From NCBI RefSeq assembly GCF_012927745.1, contig NZ_JABBKX010000001.1, positions 372,001-436,000 on the forward strand: 64,000 nt of DNA, read 5' to 3'. Source of the DNA: Neoroseomonas marina. Its GTDB lineage: Bacteria > Pseudomonadota > Alphaproteobacteria > Acetobacterales > Acetobacteraceae. Under the pieces are notes generated by a model. The model saw only the letters and a program-made list of their open reading frames with translations, was not told where the DNA came from and ran no database searches. The translations under genes and the position numbers were made by a program. Below are positions 17,941 through 63,201 of this stretch, piece by piece (positions within the stretch are counted from its first letter, which is position 1; each line of letters starts with the position of its first letter).

Positions 17941-17971
17941 GGGCGCACGAAGGTGAAGCCCTCGTGCGCCC
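17941..17971. terminator. Strong hairpin between convergent dipeptidase and otsA
   Basis: A 10-bp perfect stem, GGGCGCACGA (17941-17950) with TCGTGCGCCC (17962-17971) and an 11-nt loop, lies between the two stop codons. Read toward lower coordinates (the otsA direction) the sequence GGGCTTCACCTTCGTGCGCC is close to the first 30 nt of the 122-bp elements at 39.3 and 61.6 kb. Confidence 0.65.
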
Positions 17972-23090: not shown

Positions 23091-23167
23091 TGGCGCGCCC
23101 GGGAAGATTCGAACTCCCAACCCCCAGATCCGTAGTCTGGTGCTCTGTCCAGTTGAGCTACGGGCGC
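23091..23167 (-). tRNA. tRNA-Arg(ACG), copy 1
   Basis: 77 nt including encoded CCA (complement of 23091-23093). Acceptor GCGCCCG pairs with CGGGCGC, anticodon stem CCAGA/UCUGG encloses loop CUACGGA, anticodon ACG (inosine expected at 34). Compared with copy 2 at 26189 it has A15-U48 in place of G15-C48, G37 in place of A37 and several compensated T-stem changes, so it is folded and probably functional. Confidence 0.95.
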
Positions 23168-26188: not shown

Positions 26189-26265
26189 TGGCGCGCCCGA
26201 AAGGATTCGAACCTCTGACCCCCAGATTCGTAGTCTGGTGCTCTATCCAGCTGAGCTACGGGCGC
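26189..26265 (-). tRNA. tRNA-Arg(ACG), copy 2
   Basis: 77 nt with encoded CCA (complement of 26189-26191). Acceptor GCGCCCG/CGGGCGC, anticodon loop CUACGAA (anticodon ACG, A37), T arm AGAGG-UUCGAAU-CCUUU. Differs from copy 1 at about ten positions, with T-stem differences compensated. Confidence 0.96.
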
Positions 26266-38983: not shown

Positions 38984-39307
38984 ATGTCCGTCTATTTCCT
39001 CGCGATGATGCTGCTTTCGGCCGGCAGCTTCATTCACAGCCGCTGCGAGGCGCCGGAGATGCGCCCCGCCTCGGCCGGGGCGGACATCACCTGGCGCTGG
39101 TCGGCGCGCGCGGCGCTGGTCATGTGGATCGCCCTGATCATCTGGGGCTTCCGCGAACTGCACTGGTCCCAGCCGCTGGCCGGAATCATGGCGTCGCTGG
39201 GCGTGAATGCGCTGGTGGCGATGCGGGGCCCGATGCGCACCTGGCCGGGCCTGTCGCTGATGCTGTGCGCCACCGGGCTGGTGGCCGGATCGACCGTCTT
39301 CTTCTGA
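38984..39307 (+). CDS. Small integral membrane protein, unknown function
   Basis: 107 residues, mostly hydrophobic: predicted membrane segments at about 3-17, 42-58, 64-80 and 88-106, joined by short loops with RPASAGADITWRWS between the first two. The ATG at 38984 is preceded by a weak AAGTGAG. Divergent from the GT4 gene. I do not recognise the family; it resembles uncharacterised small proteins near LPS genes. Confidence 0.65.
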   Translation: MSVYFLAMMLLSAGSFIHSRCEAPEMRPASAGADITWRWSARAALVMWIALIIWGFRELHWSQPLAGIMASLGVNALVAMRGPMRTWPGLSLMLCATGLVAGSTVFF

Positions 39308-39313
39308 AGCCCG

Positions 39314-39435
39314 AACCTGCGGCCCGCAGGGCCGAGGCCGCGAAGGCGGCCCGCGGCGAGTGCCGCGAAGCCAAGCCGCGCGGATGCGCGGCGCCCGGCG
39401 TCTGAGGGGCACAAAGGCAAAGCCTTCGTGCGCAC
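39314..39435 (-). repeat. 122-bp 3-prime-end element, copy B
   Basis: Read on the minus strand it starts GTGCGCACGAAGGCTTTGCC and ends GGGCCGCAGGTT, and matches copy A (61642-61762) over its whole length at roughly 85% by eye with one small gap. It begins 4 nt after the stop of the lactonase-like gene. The first 30 nt form the hairpin GCACGAAGGC-GCCTTTGTGC. Confidence 0.8.
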
Positions 39436-39439
39436 ACCA

Positions 39440-40234
39440 TCACGCGATCGGCGGCAGGTGCAGGGCGACGACCTCGCGGTCCGCCCCGTCCACGGCCGGG
39501 AACCTGTCCCGCACCTTCGGATCGTGGCCGGGGATGACGCGGCTGTCGTCCCCGCCCGCCAGCTTCTTCGCCGTGCGCCACCCCGCCGCCATGGCGCCGA
39601 GGTCGAAGATGATCGGGAAGGGATTCCCGCTCAACGCATTGGCGTAGAAGTGCATGGCGTCCGAGGCGAGCACCACCGGCCCGCGCGCCGTCTCGACGCG
39701 GACCATCTGCAGCCCGTCCGAATGGCCGCCGACGCGGTGCACGGTCACGCCCGGCGCGACCTCGGCATCGCCGTCGTGGAATTCCACACGGTCGGCATAG
39801 ACGGCGCGAACCATCGAGACGACGTGGTCGGCCTCGAAGGGCATGCGGATGGCGTGGACGCACATGTGCCGGCCGACGGCGAAGTGCATCTCGCGTTCCT
39901 GCAGGTGGAACCGCGCCTTGGGGAAGATGCCGAGGCTGCCCGCATGGTCGTAGTGCAGATGCGTGATGATCACGTCCTGCACATTGGCCGGGTCGGTGCC
40001 CATCGCCGTCAGGCAGTCGGCGACCGAGCGCGACAGCTTCCGCCCGCGCTTCGTGGCCAATTCGGCATCGAAGCCGGTGTCGACCACGATCTCCCGCCCG
40101 CCGGGCCCGCGCAGCAGCCACACGAAGTAGTCGAGCGGCATCGCCTCATGCGGGTCGGCCAGCGGCAGCAGGTGGTTGGTCTGCGCCGTGCGCTCGTGCC
40201 GCCCGTATCGGATGGCGTAGGCTTCCCAGGTCAT
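39440..40234 (-). CDS. Metallo-beta-lactamase-fold protein, N-acyl homoserine lactonase family
   Basis: 264 residues. Metal-binding H92-x-H94-x-D96-H97 in THLHYDHAG, a third His in VGGHSDG, Asp in LASDAMHF and a late GHDP. The overall arrangement (N-terminal PLDYFVWLLRGPGGREIVVDTGFD) matches AHL-lactonase-family enzymes, which open the lactone ring of quorum-sensing signals; some members are general lactonases. No signal peptide. Start at 40234 overlaps the dehydrogenase stop (ATGA). Context suggests catabolism of a lactone or hydroxy acid as much as quorum quenching. Confidence 0.82.
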   Translation of the reverse strand: MTWEAYAIRYGRHERTAQTNHLLPLADPHEAMPLDYFVWLLRGPGGREIVVDTGFDAELATKRGRKLSRSVADCLTAMGTDPANVQDVIITHLHYDHAGSLGIFPKARFHLQEREMHFAVGRHMCVHAIRMPFEADHVVSMVRAVYADRVEFHDGDAEVAPGVTVHRVGGHSDGLQMVRVETARGPVVLASDAMHFYANALSGNPFPIIFDLGAMAAGWRTAKKLAGGDDSRVIPGHDPKVRDRFPAVDGADREVVALHLPPIA

Positions 40235-47063: not shown

Positions 47064-48266
47064 TCACGAGAGTTCCTTGCAGAACTCCTGGATGCGGCTG
47101 CACGCCTCGCGCAGGCTCTCGGTGTCCGTCGCGTAGGAGATGCGCAGATAGGGCGACATGCCGTAGGCCGCGCCCTGCACCGCCGCGACGTGCTTCTCCT
47201 CGAGCAGCGCGATCGCGAAGTCGGTGTCGTTCTCGATCTTCTTGCCCGCCTTGGTCGTCTTGCCGAGGCAGCCCGCGATGTTGGGGAACACGTAGAACGC
47301 GCCCTCGGGCTTGTGGCAGGCGATGCCCGGGGCCTGGTTCAGCATGTCGACCACCAGGTCGCGGCGCTGCTTGTAGATCGCCGCGCGTTCCTTCACGAGA
47401 TCCTGCGGGCCGTCGAGCGCCGCCGCCGCCGCGGCCTGCGAGATCGTCGAGATGCCCGAGGTCGCCTGGCCCTGCATGTTGATCATGGCCTTGATCAGCT
47501 CCTTCGGCCCGCCGCAGAAGCCGACGCGCCAGCCGGTCATGGCATAGGTCTTGGAGGCGCCGTTGACCGTGAGCGTGCGGTTCTTCAGCTCGGGCGCGAC
47601 CTCGGCGATCGTGCAGAACTCGAAGCCGTCGTAGACGAGGTGCTCGTACATGTCGTCGGTCATGACCCAGACATGCGGGTGCTTCTTCAGCACCTCGGCG
47701 ATCGCCTTCATCTCGTCGCGCGAGCAGGCCGCACCCGTCGGGTTGTTCGGGAAGTTCAGCATCACCCACTTGGTCTTGGGCGTGATGGCGGCGTCGAGGT
47801 CCTCGGGCCGCAGCTTGAAGCCGTTGTTCTGCGGGCAGGACACCAGCACCGGCTTGCCGCCGGCGACCTTCGCCATGTCGGCGTAGGAGATCCAGTAGGG
47901 GGCGGGGATCACCACCTCGTCGCCCGGATCCACCGTCGCCATGAAGGCGTTGTAGATGCACTGCTTGCCGCCATTGGCGACCATGATCTCGTCGAGCGCG
48001 TAGTCGATGTTGTTGTCGCGCTTGAACTTGCGCTGCACCGCTTCCTTGAGCTGCCTGGTGCCGTCCTGCGGCGGATACTTGGTGTCGCCGGCCAGCGCCG
48101 CCTTGTGCGCCGCCTCGATCGCATGCGGCGGCGAGGGGAAGTCGGGCTCGCCGGAGGCCAGGCTGATCACCTTGATCCCCTTCGCCGCCAGTTCGCGCCC
48201 CTTCATCGTCATCACGACGGAAGCGGAGATGGAGACCTCGTTCATGCGGGCGGCAAGGGCTGGCAT
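47064..48266 (-). CDS. PLP aspartate aminotransferase, class I (downstream copy)
   Basis: 400 residues. Transaminase of the AAT I alpha/beta type: KVISLASGEPDFPSPPHAIEAA, NGGKQCIYNAFM, YWISYADMAKVAGG, NFPNNPTGAACS, DDMYEHLVYDGFEF, PLP-Lys site TVNGASKTYAMTGWRVGF and C-terminal Arg in YLRISYATDTE. Probably oxaloacetate/aspartate or a related 2-oxo acid. Start ATG 48266 (a longer reading adds 30 unrelated residues). Partner copy begins 505 bp upstream. Confidence 0.92.
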   Translation of the reverse strand: MPALAARMNEVSISASVVMTMKGRELAAKGIKVISLASGEPDFPSPPHAIEAAHKAALAGDTKYPPQDGTRQLKEAVQRKFKRDNNIDYALDEIMVANGGKQCIYNAFMATVDPGDEVVIPAPYWISYADMAKVAGGKPVLVSCPQNNGFKLRPEDLDAAITPKTKWVMLNFPNNPTGAACSRDEMKAIAEVLKKHPHVWVMTDDMYEHLVYDGFEFCTIAEVAPELKNRTLTVNGASKTYAMTGWRVGFCGGPKELIKAMINMQGQATSGISTISQAAAAAALDGPQDLVKERAAIYKQRRDLVVDMLNQAPGIACHKPEGAFYVFPNIAGCLGKTTKAGKKIENDTDFAIALLEEKHVAAVQGAAYGMSPYLRISYATDTESLREACSRIQEFCKELS

Positions 48267-48312: not shown

Positions 48313-50401
<2,089 letters not shown>

Positions 50402-51638: not shown

Positions 51639-51773
51639 GGGGGGAGAAGGGAACTTCTCCCCCCGTGCCCCCCTCAACCTTCTTTGGCCTTTGGGAACTG
51701 ACCGCCGCGGCCGGCGCCGAGTTCCAGAAAAGGTTGAGGGGGGTGCAGGGGGGAGAAGTTCCCTTCTCCCCCC
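51639..51773. repeat. 135-bp nested palindromic element inside an ABC operon
   Basis: Arms 51639-51681 and 51730-51773 are inverse with essentially one mismatch/indel (43-44 bp). Each arm itself contains a hairpin, GGGGGGAGAAG-GGAA-CTTCTCCCCCC. The 48-bp centre holds CCTTTGGGAAC, also found in the 33.3-kb element. It lies between the binding protein and ATPase genes. Confidence 0.85.
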
Positions 51774-60524: not shown

Positions 60525-61637
60525 ATGAAGACCCGCGCCGCCGTCGCCTGGAAAGCCGGTGCCCCGCTCACCATCGAGACCATCGAGATCGGCGGCCCCA
60601 AGGCCGGCGAGGTGCTGGTCGAGGTGAAGGCCACCGGCGTCTGCCACACGGACGCCTACACCCTGTCGGGCGCCGACCCGGAAGGGCTGTTCCCCGCCAT
60701 CCTGGGGCATGAGGGCGCGGGCATCGTGCGGGAGGTCGGCGCGGGCGTGACGTCGCTCAAGCCGGGCGACCATGTCATCCCGCTCTACACGCCGGAATGC
60801 CGGCAGTGCAAAACCTGCCTGTCGCGCCGGTCGAACCTCTGCACCGCGATCCGCGGGACGCAGGGCAAGGGCGTGATGCCGGACGGCACCTCCCGCTTCT
60901 CCTGCGACCAGGGGACGGTGTTCCACTACATGGGCTGCAGCACCTTCGCGAACTACACCGTGCTGCCCGAGATCGCGCTGGCCAAAGTCCGCGAGGACGC
61001 GCCCTTCGACAAGATCTGCTACATCGGCTGCGGCGTGACGACGGGCATCGGCGCCGTCATCAACACCGCGAAGGTCTGGCCGGGTGCGAATGTCGCGGTG
61101 TTCGGACTTGGCGGCATCGGGCTGAACGTGATCCAGGGCGCGCGCATGGTCGGCGCCGAAAAGATCATCGGCATCGACCTGAACCCGGCCAAGGTCGAGA
61201 TGGCCAAGAAGTTCGGCATGACCCACTTCATCAACCCGACCGAGATCGGCGTCGACAAGGTGGTGCAGGCGGTGGTCGACCTGACGGGCGGCGGGGCCGA
61301 TTTCTCCTTCGACGCGACCGGCAATGTGAACGTGATGCGCCAGGCCCTGGAATGCTGCCATCGCGGCTGGGGCGAGAGCATCATCATCGGCGTGGCCGAG
61401 GCGGGCCGCGAGATCGCGACGCGCCCCTTCCAGCTGGTGACCGGACGCGTCTGGAAGGGCACCGCCTTCGGCGGCGCGCGCGGGCGCACCGACGTGCCGA
61501 AGATCGTCGACTGGTACATGGAGGGGAAGATCGAGATCGACAGCCTGATCACCCACACCATGCCGCTCGAGGAGATCAACCACGCCTTCGACCTGATGCA
61601 CGAAGGCAAGTCGATCCGGTCGGTGATCGTGTTCTGA
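60525..61637 (+). CDS. adhC: S-(hydroxymethyl)glutathione dehydrogenase
   Basis: 370-residue class III zinc alcohol dehydrogenase (FrmA-type), which oxidises S-hydroxymethylglutathione in formaldehyde detoxification and can reduce S-nitrosoglutathione. Catalytic Zn C40 (GVCHTDAY) and H62 (LGHEGAG), structural Zn C92/C95/C98/C106, [19 protein letters not shown] and the NAD-binding [30 protein letters not shown]. Start ATG 60525 after a 66-nt gap from dctM. Confidence 0.95.
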
Positions 61638-61839
61638 TGTTGTGGGCACGAAGGCTTGGCCTTCGTGCCCCTCAGGCGCCGGGCGGCCGGCATCCGCCGG
61701 CCTTGGCTCGCCGCACTCGCGGCGGGCCGAATTCGCGGCCTCCGCCCTTCGGGCCGCAGGTTGCTGCTGACGATCAGCGCGGATTGACGCGCGCGCCCGG
61801 CGCGCCTTTCCTCCGCCCCGACACGCGAGAGGAAACGCC
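61638..61839. other. Intergenic region after adhC
   Basis: 202 bp containing the 122-bp element and, at its end, GAGAGGAAAC, the ribosome site for the next gene. No ORF of its own. Confidence 0.6.
61642..61762 (+). repeat. 121-bp 3-prime-end element, copy A
   Basis: Begins GTGGGCACGAAGGCTTGGCC 4 nt after the adhC stop and ends at GGGCCGCAGGTT. The opening GGGCACGAAGGC/GCCTTCGTGCCC is a strong hairpin; further GC-rich stems follow. Matches copy B (39314-39435, opposite strand) with about 17 differences. Confidence 0.85.
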
Positions 61840-63201
61840 ATGCCCGTGAACCCCGCCGACGGCGCCGTGCTCGGCGCGCTCTACGGCACCGACGCGATGC
61901 GCGCCGCGATGGGGGAAGACGCCTTCCTCCAGCGCATGCTCGACGTCGAAGCCGCGCTCGCCCGCGCCCAGGCTCGCCTGTCCATCATCCCCGCCGAGGC
62001 CGCCGAGGCCATCACCCGGGCCGCCGACGCGACGCGCCTCGACCGCGCGGCGATGGCCGCGGCGACGCGCAACACCGGTTATCCGGTCGTCGCGCTGGTG
62101 AAGCAGCTGACCGCCCTGGCCGGCCCCGAGGCCGGGCGCTGGACCCATTGGGGTGCCACGACCCAGGACATCATGGACACCGCCCTGGTGCTCCAGGTCC
62201 GCGACGGCCTCGCGCTGATCGAATCCGACCTGCGCGCGACCTGCGCCGCACTCGCCGCCATGGCCGCGGCCCATCGCGACACGGTCATGGCCGGACGCAC
62301 CCACCTCCAGCACGCCCTGCCGGTGACCTTCGGCTACAAGGCCGCCGTGTGGCTCTCGCCGCTGCTGGCTTCCGTCGAGGGCCTCGTCCGCGTGCGCGAC
62401 CGCGCGCTGCGCCTGTCCTTCGGGGGCGCGGCGGGCACGCTCGCCTCGCTGGGCGACCAGGGCCTCGCCATCTCGCGGGAACTCGCGACGGAACTCGACC
62501 TCGCCGAAGCCGACATCCCCTGGCACGTCGCGCGCGACGGGCTGAACGAGGCCACCTGCTGGCTCGGCATCCTCTGCGGCAACCTCTCGAAGATCGCAAC
62601 CGACGTCATGCTGATGATGCAGACGGAGCTTGCGGAGGTGTCCGAACCGCATGTGCGCGGCCGCGGCGGATCCTCGACCATGCCGCAGAAGCGCAACCCG
62701 ATCGCGTGCGAATACGTCCTCTCCCAGTCGCGCGGCGTCCATGCGCTGGTCCCGCAGATGCTCGCCGCCATGGCCCAGGATTTCGAGCGCGGGACCGGCC
62801 CGTGGCAGGCGGAACTCCTCGCGTTGCCGCAGGCCTTCCTGCTCGCCCATGGCGCGCTCGCCCAGGCGCGCTTCATCGCCGAGGGCCTGGTCGTCGATCC
62901 CGCGCGCATGCGTCGCAACGTCGATGCGACGCATGGGCTGATCGTGTCGGAAGCGGTGATGATGGGCCTCGCGCCCGTCTTCGGTCGCGGCGAGAGCCAT
63001 CACATCGTCAACGACGCCTGCGACCTCGCGATCGCGGAAGGGATCGGGCTGACGGAGGCGTTGCTGCGGGATGCGCGCGTGGCGGCGAAGCTCGATGCCG
63101 CCGCCATCGCGACGATGACGGACCCCGCGGCCTATCTCGGCAGCGCGGGGGCCTTCGTGGACCGCGTGCTCACGCGCGCGCGGTCCATGGGCGTCAGTTA
63201 G
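61840..63201 (+). CDS. pcaB: 3-carboxy-cis,cis-muconate cycloisomerase-like protein
   Basis: 453 residues, fumarase/aspartase superfamily. The catalytic loop GRGGSSTMPQKRNPIACEY and HLQHALPVTFGYKAAVW, THWGATTQDIMDTALVL are typical of PcaB, which carries out the second step after protocatechuate ring cleavage; adenylosuccinate-lyase-like specificity is less likely given GSSTMPQKRNP and length. Its 3-prime end overlaps the opposite-strand lytic transglycosylase gene by 8 nt. No other pca gene is in the window. Confidence 0.82.
   Translation: MPVNPADGAVLGALYGTDAMRAAMGEDAFLQRMLDVEAALARAQARLSIIPAEAAEAITRAADATRLDRAAMAAATRNTGYPVVALVKQLTALAGPEAGRWTHWGATTQDIMDTALVLQVRDGLALIESDLRATCAALAAMAAAHRDTVMAGRTHLQHALPVTFGYKAAVWLSPLLASVEGLVRVRDRALRLSFGGAAGTLASLGDQGLAISRELATELDLAEADIPWHVARDGLNEATCWLGILCGNLSKIATDVMLMMQTELAEVSEPHVRGRGGSSTMPQKRNPIACEYVLSQSRGVHALVPQMLAAMAQDFERGTGPWQAELLALPQAFLLAHGALAQARFIAEGLVVDPARMRRNVDATHGLIVSEAVMMGLAPVFGRGESHHIVNDACDLAIAEGIGLTEALLRDARVAAKLDAAAIATMTDPAAYLGSAGAFVDRVLTRARSMGVS

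Follow-up and report, generated by a model that had tools for sequence, protein, structure and literature searches.

A REP-like family of extragenic palindromes in Neoroseomonas marina, with antisense copies that present a Shine-Dalgarno-like end ahead of start codons

The stretch analyzed here, referred to as the window, comprises 64,000 nucleotides of Neoroseomonas marina (contig NZ_JABBKX010000001.1, positions 372,001 to 436,000) and carries two copies of a palindromic element, one on each strand, that belong to a family resembling repetitive extragenic palindromic (REP) sequences. An earlier reading, made from the letters of the window only (the sequence-only reading), had described the pair correctly: 39314-39435 (minus) and 61642-61762 (plus) match over their full length with 86% identity in 121 bp, recovered as the inverted-repeat pairs I1 and I2 at 85%, and each copy is separated by 4 nt from the TGA stop codon of its upstream gene and has the same orientation as that gene. 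The features of the two sites are as follows, with bit scores given for the core model R1 described below.

60525..61637, plus strand: adhC-like gene upstream of copy 1 (name taken from the sequence-only reading)
61642..61762, plus strand: element copy 1, form A with opening hairpin, 4 nt past the adhC stop TGA (61635-61637)
61644..61670, plus strand: opening hairpin of copy 1, GGGCACGAAGGC-TTG-GCCTTCGTGCCC, a part present in a subset of sense copies only
61668..61712, plus strand: conserved core of copy 1, CCCCTCAGGCGCCGGGCG-stem-ATCC-stem-CTTGGC (R1, 61.9 bits)
61713..61762, plus strand: two additional form-A hairpins of copy 1, around GCGGGCCGAATTCGCGGCC and GCCCTTCGGGCCGCAGG
61840..63201, plus strand: called gene downstream of copy 1, beginning MPVNPADGAVLGALYGT
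39314..39435, minus strand: element copy 2, form A with opening hairpin, 4 nt past the stop TGA (39440-39442)
39364..39409, minus strand: conserved core of copy 2 (R1, 74.4 bits)
39407..39433, minus strand: opening hairpin of copy 2 (match to the hairpin pattern)
39440..40234, minus strand: gene upstream of copy 2, putatively lactonase-like (label of the sequence-only reading)
17941..17971, plus strand: hairpin after otsA that resembles the opening hairpin and has no core; not a copy of the element

A plus-strand open reading frame overlooked by our gene caller seemingly ends near 39307; hence the gap that holds copy 2 is probably convergent, despite its tandem-sense score.

A search of the genome with the copy at 61642-61762 returned 26 matches, and the element indeed has further copies; the prominence that the sequence-only reading gave to the opening hairpin did not survive, since 18 of the 26 matches start at position 19-29 and so leave out most or all of it. 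Alignment of the matches revealed a common core of 46 nt, CCCTCARRCGSCGGGCG-stem-ATCC-stem-CTTGSCTTCGCG (also rendered CCCCTCAGACGCCGGGCG-stem-ATCC-stem-CTTGGCTTCGCG), built of CCCTCARR, a short outer helix, a GGGC bulge and an inner 7-bp stem. R1, a covariance model made from 13 chosen copies, finds 58 matches in the genome at E ≤ 1, 53 of them with at least 25 bits, and these copies are distributed over many contigs, some of them arranged as tandem arrays. Two forms differ in what follows the core: form A, to which the window copies belong, adds about 50 nt with the motifs GCGGCACTNGCCGC, GGGCCGCATTCGCGGCC and GGCCCTTCGGGCCGCAGG, and form B has a terminal hairpin (e.g., GGCCCGAGGC...GCCTCGGGCC) about 84 nt after the core (69-91 nt in 70 measurable copies), the assignment being made by a rough script that left some copies, mostly of the named genomes introduced below, in neither form.

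The opening hairpin accompanies the core in a subset of copies. Its 27-nt pattern, with up to 3 mismatches, has three matches in the window (one site being counted on both strands) vs. a mean of 0.00 in 100 shuffles, and 14 of the 96 sense copies located within 60 nt of a stop codon (TGA in 11, TAG in 2, TAA in 1) have a perfect hairpin that adjoins CCTC or lies no more than 3 nt from it, leaving 82 without one. Exact CGAAGGC-N3/5-GCCTTCG hairpins occur at 8 places genome-wide, vs. 2 for the reversed control pattern; seven begin 10-17 nt past a stop codon in sense and run into an intact or (by eye) decayed core, and the remaining one lies inside a gene. With only these 8 exact places, 7 of them tied to a core, the hairpin was rejected as a general terminator. 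The supposed shorter relative after otsA turned out to be merely a GCACGAAGG...CCCTCGTGC hairpin, 36 nt past the otsA stop (gene end 17904), and it is not among the R1 matches in the window, searched to E = 1.

The placement of the family was scored on 225 copies, namely 52 from the own genome (G000), 47 from the single-contig genome G010 (in 38 examined stretches; 89 matches were counted there at E 1e-4) and 126 of 130 hits from named genomes and viral contigs (without source L210 and hits above E 0.001). Genes were called by our own script, based on codon log-odds trained on the window and lacking a Shine-Dalgarno term. Leaving aside 39 tandem duplicates and 6 copies at contig edges, 180 primary copies had both neighbors called. 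None of the 53 own copies and only 1 of the 225 (in a weak open reading frame) lies inside a called gene. The primary copies comprise 68 tandem-sense, 45 convergent, 62 tandem-antisense and 5 divergent cases, and element-free gaps of at least 50 nt at the same loci (n = 352) comprise 212 tandem, 34 convergent and 106 divergent ones, so that divergent gaps are strongly depleted (5/180 vs. 106/352, Fisher p 5e-16). Sense copies cluster behind stop codons: 52 of 113 lie within 15 nt of the stop, vs. 9.6 expected if copies are placed at random in those gaps (at most 20 in 2000 trials), another 43 lie at 16-51 nt and the others farther away; the constant 4-nt distance is true of the two window copies, not of the family. 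Among antisense copies, 33 of 62 are located 6-9 nt ahead of the start codon of the gene that follows, vs. a null mean of 1.7 (maximum 7 in 2000 placements). The stop codon of the preceding gene lies 70-72 nt after the core in 8 of these 62 and 100-111 nt after it in 15, and among near-start form-B copies with a measurable end (n = 15) it lies 18-33 nt beyond the element in 9.

The sequence-only reading had proposed a conserved RNA element at the 3' end of genes, i.e., a terminator, an RNA stabilizer or a protein target that follows genes in sense, and expected tens of copies near stop codons, nearly all in sense and outside coding regions. The number, the non-coding location and the nearness of many copies to stops were as expected, the sense copies downstream of genes (113 of 180) and the avoidance of divergent gaps agree with such a role, as does the strong extra hairpin that stands 10-17 nt past 7 stop codons. 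The expected single orientation was only partly found, because 62 of 180 copies are antisense, 33 of them at the start-codon spacing given above. Moreover, in the listed hairpin-bearing copies the hairpin passes directly into CCTC with no T-run, and T-rich stretches precede the core instead (at least 4 T in 8 nt in 45 of 71 sense copies located 5-60 nt after a stop). In Rfam 15, no family reaches its gathering score at the elements in the window, and at 9 other loci nothing is found except a cobalamin riboswitch beside one element; a permissive search of 61600-61840 yielded a single weak match, RT-19 at 61805-61840, outside the element.

The stem itself argues against the view that the palindrome is maintained for the sake of an RNA hairpin. 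Covariation is strong: among 13 hand-picked copies, 7 of 12 pairs vary at both positions, a count that none of 500 shuffles reached, and 96.8% of the stem cells are paired. The accompanying RNA signature is absent. On the element strand, the ratio of G.U to A.C mismatches is 41:43 for sense copies; for antisense copies, in which the transcribed strand is the opposite one, it is 18:19. Most of these cells fall in the outer helix; the inner hairpin alone gives 5:9 and 5:3, respectively, i.e., 8 wobble vs. 14 A.C cells on the transcribed strand, which are few and show no excess. Compensatory evolution at the RNA level was accordingly rejected in spite of the strong pair counts, and in our view it is as DNA that the palindrome is maintained, since G.U does not exceed A.C on the transcribed strand. 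The idea of a 3'-end role is half right, and as a complete explanation we consider it unlikely, given the antisense copies and the lack of wobble preference in either class. Settlement at gene junctions, which is close to the other option of the sequence-only reading (insertion beside stop codons), fits better.

Read in antisense, the CCCTC end of the element is GAGGG, a Shine-Dalgarno-like sequence that stands 6-9 nt before start codons, as in CTGAGGGCACGAGCTATG ahead of dnaJ and CTGAGGGACAAGCAGAATG ahead of the gene for an EVE protein. Among antisense copies located 6-12 nt before a start, CCTC (GAGG) is kept in 35 of 35 and CCCTC (GAGGG) in 34 of 35; for comparison, GAGG is present in the Shine-Dalgarno region of 78 of 337 called genes from the own and G010 loci. 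All 11 near-start antisense copies of the own genome retain GAGGG, vs. 14 of 33 sense copies. One could suppose that the motif was never brought by the element, CCTC being the complement of the host's own Shine-Dalgarno sequence used as a target site. This model was rejected for the EVE gene, because in six element-free genomes (G001, G003, G006, G010, G017, G044) YciI and EVE overlap by ATGA and no GAGG is found in the 30 nt before the start.

Comparison of the same junctions in related genomes, with G021 as the closest relative of G000 in the set, revealed both filled and empty sites. At dnaK-dnaJ, where 17 of 19 loci were read (all but G011 and G012), the element is present in 9 genomes of the genus, with a diverged far part in the dnaJ copy of G004; the copy in G021 is decayed, whereas G044, G017 and another five genomes of greater distance have none. 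At YciI-EVE (19 of 26 loci read), G000, G021, G004, G016 and G011 carry it, G019 has a decayed copy, the six genomes named above have the overlapping genes, and the seven other EVE loci have different DNA upstream. At adhC (18 of 27 loci read), the element is found in G000 and G016 and in shortened form in G021; in the other genomes the next gene closely follows or the region differs. The gene at 61840..63201, which we take to be lyase-like, is the one whose ortholog closely follows adhC in several of the element-free genomes. At EVE, adhC and dnaJ, the orthologous site is thus filled in some genomes and empty in others, as would be expected of a mobile element. The EVE copies of the five genomes share a nearly identical stem and, where read, a similar unusual end hairpin; because of this, one old insertion followed by several precise losses appears as likely at that site as repeated gain.

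Fixed sites may change their stems wholesale. We compared G000 with G021 at 17 own loci (19 rows), using 20 stretches drawn around the elements of G021 itself together with loci already in the data set. At 5 of the 17 (L027, L033, L036, L043, L062) the stem is quite different yet wholly or nearly paired, within flanks that are 88-97% identical; it is unchanged at L028, L030, L037, L038, L039, L046 and L052, and at the remaining loci the element is slightly different, decayed or absent. These swaps speak for sequence exchange among copies or for template-switch repair of the palindromes, and not for slow compensatory change. They would also suit the view that the family is not mobile now and consists of old junction elements that descend vertically and are homogenized by gene conversion or by such repair, a view that the shared stem and end hairpin of the five EVE copies, suggestive of one old insertion with repeated loss, also favors. 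The copy number in the genus, which ranges from 0 to 130 per genome, and the patchy distribution in the class require gains as well as losses. Tandem duplicates, moreover, are frequent (39 of 225). We regard purely vertical descent as somewhat unlikely.

The counts behind this statement are as follows. The highest numbers, 103-130 copies, were found in G003, G010 and G019, and they may be underestimates since at most 150 candidates were scored per genome. Across the class, 9 of 142 genomes, the own one included, have a match at E ≤ 1e-6 under stricter filters. Among the matches listed are those in Roseomonas, Neoroseomonas, Falsiroseomonas, Plastoroseomonas, Croceicoccus, Porphyrobacter, Qipengyuania, Blastomonas, Sphingomonas and Azospirillum; the named-genome scan gave at least 112 stretches, of which those other than L176-L207 (32 stretches) were examined. 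Inverted pairs of copies were seen in the Sphingomonadales (L104, L121, L153). Seven IMG/VR stretches (L209 and L210 having identical contexts) and two partial plasmid matches are uninformative as to phage or plasmid carriage. A palindrome maintained with no strand signature, in copies spread over many contigs, might also be a family of protein-binding sites functional in both orientations, such as the gyrase, IHF or polymerase I sites that REPs of other bacteria provide according to the summary in PMC5082802. Alone, this would not explain why copies of one orientation stand 6-9 nt from start codons, and we consider it the least probable of the explanations weighed here.

In the broad sense, the family behaves as REPs do: it consists of many intergenic copies of a short palindrome, none of the own copies being in a called gene, which mainly occupy unidirectional or convergent gaps near 3' ends. 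No GTAG-type tag stands beside the stem, the core consensus before the inner stem being CCCTCAGACGCCGGGCG. The nearest counterparts are the CGTC REPs, found mainly in Alphaproteobacteria (Di Nocera et al., 2013; PMC3733652), which are likewise short intergenic palindromes between unidirectional or convergent genes, near the 3' ends of open reading frames and with no dedicated transposase in the account given there. The text of that paper, against which the comparison was made in place of its consensus figure, describes a CGTC (or TGTC, CCTC) tag, a stem of 8-9 bp whose first two pairs are A-T and a tail that is mostly CCA, and reports these repeats as absent from the Acetobacteraceae. By contrast, the present element has CCCTCARR (CCTC, then ARRCG), an outer helix, a 4-nt GGGC bulge, a 7-bp G+C inner stem and the tail CTTGGCTTCGCG, together with a longer body of several hairpins and an antisense form located at start codons. 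It shares with the GTAG REPs and REPINs that accompany RAYT (Y1) transposases, as outlined in the same text, the high copy number, the extragenic palindromes and, in the Sphingomonadales, the inverted pairs, and differs in lacking the tag and, in 28 of 29 genomes of the genus (the copy-rich G003, G010 and G019 among them), a Y1 transposase. For E. coli, PMC12306157 reports that REPs no more than 15 nt from a stop codon reduce translation of the gene before them; the same range holds 52 of our 113 sense copies, whereas the sequence is another one and half of the antisense copies here stand at starts with a Shine-Dalgarno-like end. The Br-REP1 and Br-REP2 elements of Bradyrhizobium (PMC5082802) are also REPs of alphaproteobacterial 3' untranslated regions, a likeness drawn from their published description. 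In the open-access part of PMC, the scope of our search, we found no report of the present element, nor of an antisense form whose Shine-Dalgarno end keeps a fixed distance to starts. Other alphaproteobacterial intergenic repeats, in Caulobacter and Sinorhizobium, are already in print. Since no such antisense form was found described, we file the family as a new form of REP-like elements, with this form as the new feature.

Our collective results favor, with moderate confidence, one REP-like extragenic palindromic family that spreads as DNA and is tolerated at gene junctions because one of its ends can supply a ribosome-binding site. The element would spread in the genome and exchange sequence between copies as DNA, and copies would survive at junctions, where genes stay unbroken. 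In a sense copy after a stop codon, the hairpins may terminate, protect or slow the message of the upstream gene, roles already put forward for other REPs. In an antisense copy, the CCCTC end, read as GAGGG, could serve the next gene as a normally spaced Shine-Dalgarno sequence, so that an operon with an inserted copy would still be translated.

Several observations weigh against this interpretation or narrow its base. At EVE, a three-gene tree interleaves filled with empty sites and does not settle the polarity of gain and loss, and the G021 stretches, being chosen around its own elements, are uninformative on the share of common sites. In G010, GAGGG is kept in 7 of 8 near-start antisense and 21 of 26 sense copies, i.e., with no difference, and the named set A5, retrieved by a pattern containing CCTCA, cannot inform on GAGGG keeping at all. 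The dnaJ genes of the element-free genomes G044 and G017 also have GAGGGC before the start, so that the target-site model may hold at that junction. As many as 29 of the 62 antisense copies are not at 6-9 nt from a start, and the gene caller makes errors, the open reading frame missed near 39307 being one. Regarding the mobilizing enzyme, a search limited to the Y1_Tnp family found no Y1 transposase in the own genome and only one in the 29 genomes of the genus (in G043), so that a RAYT/Y1 transposase was rejected as the mobilizer.

A few further observations touch the family or its surroundings. A second small hairpin of about CCCATGCACGTTGC-NNN-GCAACGCGCATGGG sits within the loop of the element hairpin at L066 2043-2057, L050 1450-1464 and the EVE site of G016 (L256 1176-1190), and comparable hairpins occur at two more sites, EVE in G004 and dnaJ in G001; it looks as though a different repeat had the loops of hairpins as its target. 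The cobalamin riboswitch mentioned above (L033 1881-2093, 79.4 bits) lies downstream of a tandem pair of elements and ahead of a gene, presumably for a TonB-dependent receptor. At L133, a stretch cgtcattgcgaggagccggaggcgacgcggcaatcca downstream of an element copy seems to resemble the CGTC REPs, and both kinds of repeat may share one gap. Elsewhere in the window, the minus-strand genes 47064-48245 and 48771-49973 have about 600 nt in common at 76% identity and are probably nearby paralogues; a 35-nt inverted repeat of the GGGGGGAGAAGGGAACTTCTCCCCCC type (51639-51673 and 51739-51773; 89% complementary, 65 nt apart) is intergenic with respect to the called genes; and two similar tRNA genes (23094-23167 and 26192-26265, minus strand) are 86% identical and lie about 3 kb apart.

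More tentatively, and with less than even confidence, we speculate that the family is a mobile palindrome with a built-in ribosome-binding site, which on landing in antisense, for example at dnaK-dnaJ or between the overlapping YciI and EVE genes, takes over initiation at the following gene and breaks its coupling to the one before, so that tens of junctions would share one exchangeable cassette. If this is true, a repeat family lacking a known mobilizing enzyme would have spread through operons of several alphaproteobacteria carrying its own Shine-Dalgarno sequence, which would be a simple answer to how repeats settle in operons without killing them. The filled and empty junctions of sister species, such as dnaK-dnaJ, would then constitute a natural experiment on the ratios of operon products.
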